Notes under the pieces: model-generated | Told to the model about the DNA's origin: nothing | Seen by the model: only the letters and a program-made list of their open reading frames with translations | Database searches by the model: none | Shown: positions 26,901-29,900 of the stretch, one piece after another | Position numbering within the stretch: the first letter of the stretch is position 1 | Layout: every line of letters starts with the position of its first letter | Assembly: GCA_033239005.1 (NCBI GenBank) | Contig: BSQZ01000080.1 | Coordinates: 153,501 to 217,500 of the forward strand | Source: Lamellibrachia satsuma | Lineage: Eukaryota > Annelida > Polychaeta > Sabellida > Siboglinidae | Length of the DNA stretch: 64,000 nt | Direction of reading: 5' to 3' | Position numbers and translations under genes: made by a program

Positions 26901-29900
26901 CTCCTGATGATTTTAGCGCAATAGAAGCATTTTATATATTATTATAATAAAAATAATCTCATTATCGTGTTTTGGCCACATTAAAACATTGTTTGATGGT
27001 TACAATTGTTGTTTCTTCAATTTCTGTTTACAAGCAAATCGTGTTTGTGGGAGTCTAGTAAACATATGCCCTGTTTTGGGTAAATATTTGATATTGCTAT
27101 ATCTTTTTATACCAATCTTGACATGCAAAATTTTTTCCATCAAGAACCACTTGAGAAAATGCCACATATTACACCAATAGCAAGTAGAAGAGCCCTTTAG
27201 AGGAACATTTAGTTTTGGTTTTCTATTTGTGCACGACTCGATATCAGCAAAATAACATTCAATTTGTATTTCCATGCAAGAGCTATTATTTTGTTGCAAA
27301 GAATCCTAAGGTAAAAAATACTATTGTAGGAATTGTTCAGTGAAAACTATAATACTTTCATGTGCAAACTAGATGAGGCCTTGCATTGGTCATATATTAG
27401 ATACCATATGTTGCCTAATATAATCTTTATTCACATTCTTGAACAGATGGACATTCTGGTTTCTAATTTATCGAGAAACCTGGTGGTATTCTCCCAATAT
27501 TTATCGACTTATTCGGCCTTCGTTGGCAAGCTGACTTTGACATTCCCATGGTTAAAACATGGCAAAGCTGTGGCAAAGCCAGTCCGCAGACAAAGGCCGA
27601 ATGGGCCAGTCGACGTAAAAGTTTCTTGAGAGGTCTAATATATTCACACTGTTTGTAGTTTTGATAGATGTGTAATCTGTTGTGTATAGTTGATGTACAT
27701 AATAAATGTTTTGTAGATGCTCAGATTTGATTTCATTGGTGGAAAGAGGTACTCGCCATGAGCGAAAAAAAGCTTACACTACGAATGTATAACTTCTCCA
27801 TGTTAACTTTTGTCAGCCATCGATAGCATGGCCTTGATTAACCATCTGTTTTTTTTGTTTCAGAGTTTATCGAGGGCATTTCCCTGTTTAGTGTTAAAGG
27901 TGCAAAGGAAGCGAAAATGCGCTGTAAGTAATCCCAGTCCTGTGTCTTATGTGTATGCGAATTGCGTGTTTCAGAGTTCATAGAAGGTGTCTCGCAGTTT
28001 AGTGTAAAAGGAGACAAGGAGTCAAAATTGAGGTGTAAGTAGGAAGGAATTTGCTGTTTTCCTGCACTGTTTGTTGCATTTTTTACACGTCCTTTTCGAG
28101 ACTTTGCCATTGCTGCCGTCATCATTGGCCGGTTTGCTGCATTTTGGCTAGATTTTCTTCTTGTTGCCTCAATTTTTCTTCTTCCTCATATCTCTCTCTC
28201 TCCGTGTGATTTTCCGCATGTGCCCCGGGGGTAGGGTCGCGGATGTGTTTTGGGTTTGTTCTGCCGTCTCTGCCCCCCATTCCGTCTAGAGTGCGGTCAC
28301 ACAGTTGGTGCATGGTGGGTGTGCCGGCTCACTCGAGGTGGGTGCATCTGCCCAAAGGTGGATGCATTTGCCTGAAGGTTGGTGCGTCTGCCTGAAGGTG
28401 GGTGCATCTGCCTGAAGTTTGATGCGTCTGCCCGAAGGTGGGTGCATCTACCCAAAGGTAGGTGTGTCTATCCGAAGGTGGGTGCATCTGCCCGAATGTG
28501 GGTGTGTCTGCCTGAAGGTAGATGCGTCTGCCCAAAGATGGTTGCACCTTTGGGCAGATGCACCCACCCACTTGCAGACCCATCCACCCTAGGACAGATG
28601 CTCTCACTCAAGTGTTCGTGCATTGACCTAAGGGTGGGTTTGTCTGCCCAAAGGTGCATGAGCCCGAACGTAGGTGCACTTGCCCAAGATTTTATGCATC
28701 TGCCCAAAGTTGGGTGCATCTGCCTAAGTGTAGGTGCATTTGCCCAAGGGTAAGTGCATCTGCCCAAGGGTAAGTGCATCTGCCCAAGGGTAAGTGCATC
28801 TGCCCAAGGGTAAGTGCATCTGTCCAAGAATAGCTGCATCAGCCCATGGTGGGCGCACCTGCCCAAGGGTTTGTTTGTCACCTAACGTTGAGTTGCACTA
28901 CGCCACCCTCATATCTCACGTTTGTCGTTGAGTTGTTGAGTAACACAGAAATAACAGTTGTTGATGCAAGCAGATCTCTCGCTACTCACATCTGTCTCAT
29001 GGTTGCACACATTGTTCATGTGCCTTGGCTCTTGGTTATGCCATCTTTTGAGTTCTTCTAATTTGTTGGGCTGTAAGAACATTTGACATTTAGCACAGTG
29101 TGCGCTAAAGTACAAAATGTATTTTTGGTGTAGAAATCTTTGCTGCATTGTAGCATCAAACCAGCTTGTTTCCGACAGAATGTCAACACTATTTTATGGC
29201 AGATATATGAGATGATAGCATCCCATTTACAGCTGTAGGTGACCAACCTCTGTTGTCAAACTGACACTTTACTGACTGTCCAAAGTGAGCTGGATGCTAA
29301 TGTAAATCCTCACTTAGAGCAAGTAATTATTAACACATCTTAACTTGAACAAAATAATACACCTGAAATGCAGATTGCAAAGTTAAAAGCTTACATGCAG
29401 AATACAATTTGGGATATTTTCATCAGAATAATTTAAGGCATTTGTTCACCACTCAAACATAATTAATCATGTGTAGGACAGTTGAAGACATACTATGCAC
29501 CTCGCATTTAGATTAAATATATGGACGGTAATATTAAAAACAAATCCAATGTTGCTTTATGAAACTTGGTGGCATTGCATAATGTAAGGCCAATTTTTCA
29601 TTCATTTGCATTTTATATGCAAGTGACAAACAAAGCAGCGCCTATTTTATATGTTTTGGAATGCATTTCAGTGAAAATATACACAGTGGATATGTTAGTG
29701 ATTGTATATATAATTTGGTAATATGTATATTGTATGAAAATATCTAGCTATCACCAAAGGGTATGTAAATTTCACCACTTATTTGTTTACAGTAAAAAAG
29801 GCATTATGTTATATTCAATGATGACATTTTACTACTGTAGATGTGATTTATCCTTTTGGGGAACAGCCATTGTCATTCTGCAAATTGTCACTTCCACCTT

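Follow-up and report, generated by a model that had tools for sequence, protein, structure and literature searches.

Few regulatory subunits of animals are as conserved as calcineurin B (CnB), which is commonly viewed as the one invariable partner of calcineurin A. An exchange of part of an EF-hand region through mutually exclusive exons is known in alpha-actinin, which belongs to another protein family and in which joint splicing of the two exons is blocked by the short distance between them. To our knowledge, no such exon pair has been described in CnB, and full-text searches of open-access papers, judged by titles and the beginnings of abstracts, brought up no description of one. The pair reported here, in the deep-sea vestimentiferan tubeworm Lamellibrachia satsuma, is of a known kind, in a gene for which we found none described.

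Within the same enzyme, isoforms generated by mutually exclusive splicing are found in tax-6, the calcineurin A gene of C. elegans (exons 13a/13bc; PMC12503234). Unlike the CnB pair, the tax-6 exons lie in the catalytic subunit, encode a linker near the autoinhibitory domain and are unequal in length. The available portion of that paper credits calcineurin diversity to the A subunit, and speaks of one CnB gene, with no mention of a splice pair in it (PMC12503234). Helminths, annelids and molluscs have exclusive exons in coq-2 (PMC7434440) that are, as far as the accessible text of that work describes them, likewise paired exons of the same length at the same place in a conserved gene, exchanging a core segment of the protein. 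However, coq-2 encodes an enzyme, and the use and function of its exons were proven by RNA-seq and gene editing, whereas CnB is a Ca2+ sensor whose exon pair is known here from sequence. The human OGDH exons 4a and 4b (PMC7969005, available in part) are also exclusive; the length of the intron separating them is constrained by branch-point position, and the two isoforms differ in their response to Ca2+. The distant branch points of OGDH were mapped experimentally, whereas the corresponding intron of CnB is, by arithmetic, simply too short.

The window analysed here is a stretch of 64,000 nucleotides of the L. satsuma genome. A tblastn search with a CnB probe recovered exons 2, 3, 5 and 6 of the gene on the forward strand, plus two adjoining matches to exon 4 (Table 1). 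No ATG-bearing exon 1 was located upstream of exon 2, and the ATG codon is assumed in the exon model. The introns measure, in order, 3164, 6413, 51, 6248 and 450 nt, and every intron with both ends located is bounded by GT and AG. The last base of exon 3 is the G of a split Glu codon, the rest of which is supplied by the start of either exon 4a or exon 4b. The encoded protein is a calcineurin B of the PPP3R1 type, with about 170 amino acids and four EF-hands, and its spliced 4a isoform matches the chains of solved calcineurin B structures with high identity over residues 1-170 (the Pfam scan for EF-hand domains covered a related protein, P0047). Exon 4b is the canonical form of CnB exon 4.

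Table 1. Features of the CnB gene in the window
Feature	Positions	Strand	Size or content	Basis
CnB exon 2	18070..18109	+	13 residues	tblastn, exon model
CnB exon 3	21274..21450	+	EF-hand 1, most of EF-hand 2 loop	tblastn, exon model
Exon 4a, variant copy	27864..27923	+	60 bp, 20 residues	tblastn, exon model, repeat, chance test
Weak internal GT in 4a, GTGCAAAG	27900..27907	+		donor in public L. satsuma gene model
Intron 4a-4b	27924..27974	+	51 nt	exon model
Exon 4b, canonical copy	27975..28034	+	60 bp, 20 residues	tblastn, exon model, repeat
CnB exon 5	34283..34467	+	EF-hands 3 and 4	tblastn, exon model
CnB exon 6	34918..34965	+	holds stop codon	tblastn, exon model

The preliminary description of this locus had claimed a tandem duplication of exon 4, and its anatomical part was reproduced throughout. 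The two adjoining, homologous exons are equal in length and phase, both fit between exons 3 and 5, and each has its own AG acceptor and GTAAGT donor; their identities, 42/60 nucleotides and 15/20 residues, are those reported previously. The repeat unit extends beyond the exons to 75 nt (76% identity), running from the acceptor into the donor; both exons are intact. The acceptor TGTTTCAG and the donor TGTAAGTA are identical between the copies despite 30% divergence of the exons themselves, a degree of divergence that would speak against an assembly duplicate. Chance similarity was rejected as the source of 4a: its peptide scores 77 (BLOSUM62) against the canonical exon-4 peptide, whereas the best non-exon stretch of the window, over both strands and all offsets, scores 27, and the maximum in 40 Markov-resampled copies of positions 21451-34282 (three forward frames only) was also 27. 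Two splice-site features weigh against use of the two exons as a pair: the pyrimidine tract of the 4b acceptor is weak (0.50, compared with 0.81 for 4a), although that of the constitutive exon 6 is as weak, and both donors lack a G at position -1. These donors score 1.85 and rank 151 among the 4392 GT sites according to a splice matrix of approximate frequencies.

We regard it as probable that these exons are a tandem-duplicated, mutually exclusive pair in the Lamellibrachia CnB gene. Exon 3 would be joined to either 4a or 4b, and then to exon 5, giving two CnB isoforms of 170 amino acids that differ at 5 of the 20 exon-4 residues. In the exon model, the orders 3-4a-5 and 3-4b-5 each form an open CnB frame of this length. 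In the order 3-4a-4b-5, the final T of 4a meets the initial AG of 4b, which puts an in-frame TAG at their junction; if such a transcript were made, translation would stop there and the mRNA would be a target of nonsense-mediated decay. Skipping of both copies (3-5) keeps the frame and shortens the protein by 20 residues. A distance of less than 50 bp between donor and branch point has been used as the criterion of steric interference for human exclusive exons, as given in the portion of that study available (PMC5740500). As the 4a-4b intron is 51 nt long, any branch point in it lies, by arithmetic, less than 50 nt from the donor, and its sole yTnAy match places a candidate branch adenine at intron position 26, so that splicing of 4a to 4b is predicted to be hindered. 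Joint use of the two exons is thus disfavoured twice, by the junction TAG and by the short intron. Since introns of about 51 nt are spliced in some animals, the TAG is the firmer barrier of the two. Together they make mutual exclusivity much more likely than the preliminary description could argue, which mentioned neither of them, nor the in-frame loss of 20 codons upon skipping of both copies.

No evidence supported base pairing in the RNA as a selector between the exons. The predicted fold of the 211-nt region is not better than those of shuffled sequences (z 0.61), of which 140 of 200 were at least as stable. A single inverted repeat occurs near the exons (27511-27542 / 27571-27602); it is intronic and lies upstream of 4a. 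The Rfam search detected no RNA family within the window.

Both copies had been said to look selected, with most silent sites changed, and the substitution pattern agrees. By the Nei-Gojobori method, 4a and 4b differ by 11.5 silent and 6.5 replacement changes, with pS of 0.945 (saturated), pN of 0.136 and pN/pS of 0.144. All seven exon-4 residues that are invariant in an alignment of 32 proteins (E74, F75, I76, G78, S80, F82 and S83) are kept in 4a. We simulated a 4a evolving neutrally next to a 4b under strict constraint, conditioned the runs on 17-19 differences, and counted as successes those with five or fewer residue changes and no stop. The observed pattern was reached in 3 of 4676 conditioned runs, in none of 2761 when both copies were neutral, and in 1432 of 10461 when both were constrained at 15% acceptance; neutral decay of 4a was therefore rejected. 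The saturation of silent sites, the few replacements and the retained invariant residues indicate that both copies have long been selected as protein.

These figures bear on two other readings of 4a. If it were a decaying or dead duplicate, skipped or present as noise while 4b carries on, one would understand that the whole exon is unused in the public L. satsuma gene model; nevertheless, saturated silent sites with few replacements, the lack of a stop and the preservation of both splice signals are hard to square with decay, and in view of the simulation the sole escape would be a recent loss of constraint. We consider this improbable. The in-frame TAG produced by joining 4a to 4b could alternatively mean that 4a serves as a poison-exon switch, lowering CnB through nonsense-mediated decay and giving no second protein. 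A pure poison exon, however, needs no amino-acid conservation, whereas 4a has the seven invariant residues and a low pN; the 51-nt intron disfavours the very join that such a switch needs, and P0047 resembles protein-coding use of a single exon-4 copy. This second possibility appears very improbable.

P0002, publicly annotated as 'Calcineurin subunit B type 1 [Lamellibrachia satsuma]', has 182 amino acids and corresponds to neither exclusive form. The window reproduces it letter for letter if 27864-27899, the first 36 nt of 4a, are joined to 4b. The exact match obtained with a join of 27899 to 27975, across a 75-nt intron that exceeds the 51 nt separating the complete exons, would suit a genuine CnB that carries 12 additional residues behind the EF-2 loop. 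Nevertheless, the donor on this route, GTGCAA, is weak (score -0.42 and rank 445 among the 4392 GT sites, compared with a score of 1.85 and rank 151 at the exon ends, all by the approximate matrix), and the product repeats the EFIEG block in a protein of otherwise fixed spacing. Moreover, avoidance of the TAG is what would be expected of gene-prediction software that had to fit in the two pieces together. It is therefore hardly probable that the annotated form is real; the existing gene model more likely mis-joins the exon pair than records a third form. The tubeworm case illustrates that gene models can hide exon pairs, the public protein being a splice of both exons.

If the exons are indeed used exclusively, the difference between the two proteins is confined to V79I, Q81L, D87A, S90A and L92M (4b to 4a). 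In the predicted models of P0047 and of its canonical partner P0008, which are of moderate confidence (mean pLDDT 75.8 and 76.9, respectively), exon 4 covers the exit helix of EF-2 (72-80) and a linker (81-87), and reaches into the beginning of the EF-3 helix (88-99). The helix limits across exon 4 are equal in the two models (72-80 and 88-99), so that the models locate the exon but show no effect of the exchange; a Foldseek search retrieved calcineurin B chains. E74, the first exon-4 residue, is unchanged in 4a; judged by the sequence pattern, it is position 12 of the EF-2 loop. The swap would accordingly keep the EF-2 ligand Glu and the invariant core, and alter the linker (D87A, S90A and L92M) and the exit helix (V79I and Q81L). 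Position 87 carries D in 176 of 194 proteins and A in a single one. Without this probable helix cap in the linker, the lobes could move differently relative to each other. The likely effect would be a tuning of the coupling between the Ca2+-regulated N-lobe and the C-lobe plus calcineurin A. The gene can probably make two CnB forms, judging from its exon structure and coding constraint, and a selected second version of the inter-lobe segment would amount to a natural experiment in the coupling of Ca2+ binding by CnB to the phosphatase.

As for relatives, the presence of the pair outside this locus was addressed in part. The first 12 codons of 4a are contained in P0002, but that protein may come from the same species or even from this very locus, and hence does not testify independently to conservation; a diverged exon-4 block was also found in P0047, a gastropod-like protein. 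P0047 is a 170-aa open frame on a contig of 1137 nt (source tag jgi), and its nearest relatives are the CnB proteins of Plakobranchus, Elysia and Biomphalaria. That the frame is uninterrupted on such a short contig suggests a spliced cDNA. From the CnB of the sea slug Plakobranchus it differs at 12 of 170 residues, namely residue 5, nine residues in 77-92, and residues 106 and 142; within residues 16-170, 9 of 20 positions differ in the exon-4 block and 2 of 135 outside it (hypergeometric probability, 7e-8). We compared exon-4 blocks in 196 rows, consisting of 194 of 217 fetched proteins and the two isoforms of the window (the 23 proteins without the fixed spacing, P0002 among them, were excluded). 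P0047 alone has a block more than four changes away from all five nearest neighbours, the distances of the other rows being 0 (149 rows), 1 (20), 2 (17), 3 (6) and 4 (3, including the 4a form of the window). The block retains conserved residues, which argues against a frameshift artefact, and P0047 seems to represent an expressed exon-4 variant isoform of a heterobranch gastropod CnB.

P0047 might instead be the ordinary CnB of a lineage with a diverged single exon 4, or the product of a paralogous gene copy, with no bearing on exon pairs. This is unlikely, as its changes are bounded by the exon limits, and divergence of a lineage or a gene copy would not stop at two splice junctions. Taking P0047 as a variant isoform, we compared its block with the tubeworm exons: it shares 13 of 20 residues with 4a, 10 with 4b and 11 with the canonical form of gastropods. 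L81 and M92 are common to P0047 and 4a, but both residues occur in other aligned proteins (L81 in 13 and M92 in 7 of 194, P0047 counted), so their sharing is weak evidence of a common origin.

It is attractive to speculate that exon 4 was duplicated before the split of annelids and molluscs and that the pair, then an ancient feature of lophotrochozoans, has been kept since, which would provide these animals with two CnB proteins differing in the EF-2 exit helix and linker; we hold this as a tentative possibility. If it is the case, the pair may have escaped notice through automatic gene models in which the two exons are merged or one is left out. Alternatively, the annelid and mollusc lineages could each have acquired a CnB pair independently. 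Such an origin has a precedent in mrp-1, the exclusive exons of which arose separately in helminths, annelids and molluscs according to the available part of the same work that describes coq-2 (PMC7434440). A possible gastropod counterpart raises the exon pair above a single-species curiosity. Besides P0002 and P0047, no 4a-type protein was seen among the best 120 of 303 and the best 120 of 221 matches to the exon-4 block, in which clustering at 90% can hide isoforms. No relatives were confirmed in viral_contigs or in the bacterial and archaeal set genome_contigs.

Other irregularities of CnB proteins were met in the same comparison. Three annotated CnB isoforms, P0027 (Haliotis rubra isoform X1), P0107 (Nasonia) and P0118 (Diachasma), have small insertions either where exons 4 and 5 meet (CM) or within the exon-4 block (Q, VKK), which are probably due to alternative acceptors. 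An annotated CnB-like protein of Ixodes scapularis (P0001) carries most of the block of EF-hands 3-4 twice with no visible change, which is likely an assembly or gene-model duplicate.

A 39-bp tandem repeat (~36.7 copies, 91% matches; 23525-24953) lies within the intron between exons 3 and 4a and is crossed by open frames on both strands, and a 40-bp tandem repeat (~98.6 copies, 96% matches; 39850-43791) lies downstream of the CnB gene. A reverse-transcriptase fragment at 26014-26553 (+), about 1.3 kb before exon 4a, appears to belong to an intronic retroelement (PF00078, E 7.9e-06, under the family cut-off). Near-identical open frames at 11460-12041 (+) and 31137-31892 (-), neither with a Pfam match, are probably copies of one retroelement. 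Lastly, a neighbour gene on the opposite strand is marked by an open frame at 1357-1830 (-) with a GST C-terminal domain (PF00043), which we take to resemble elongation factor 1-gamma.
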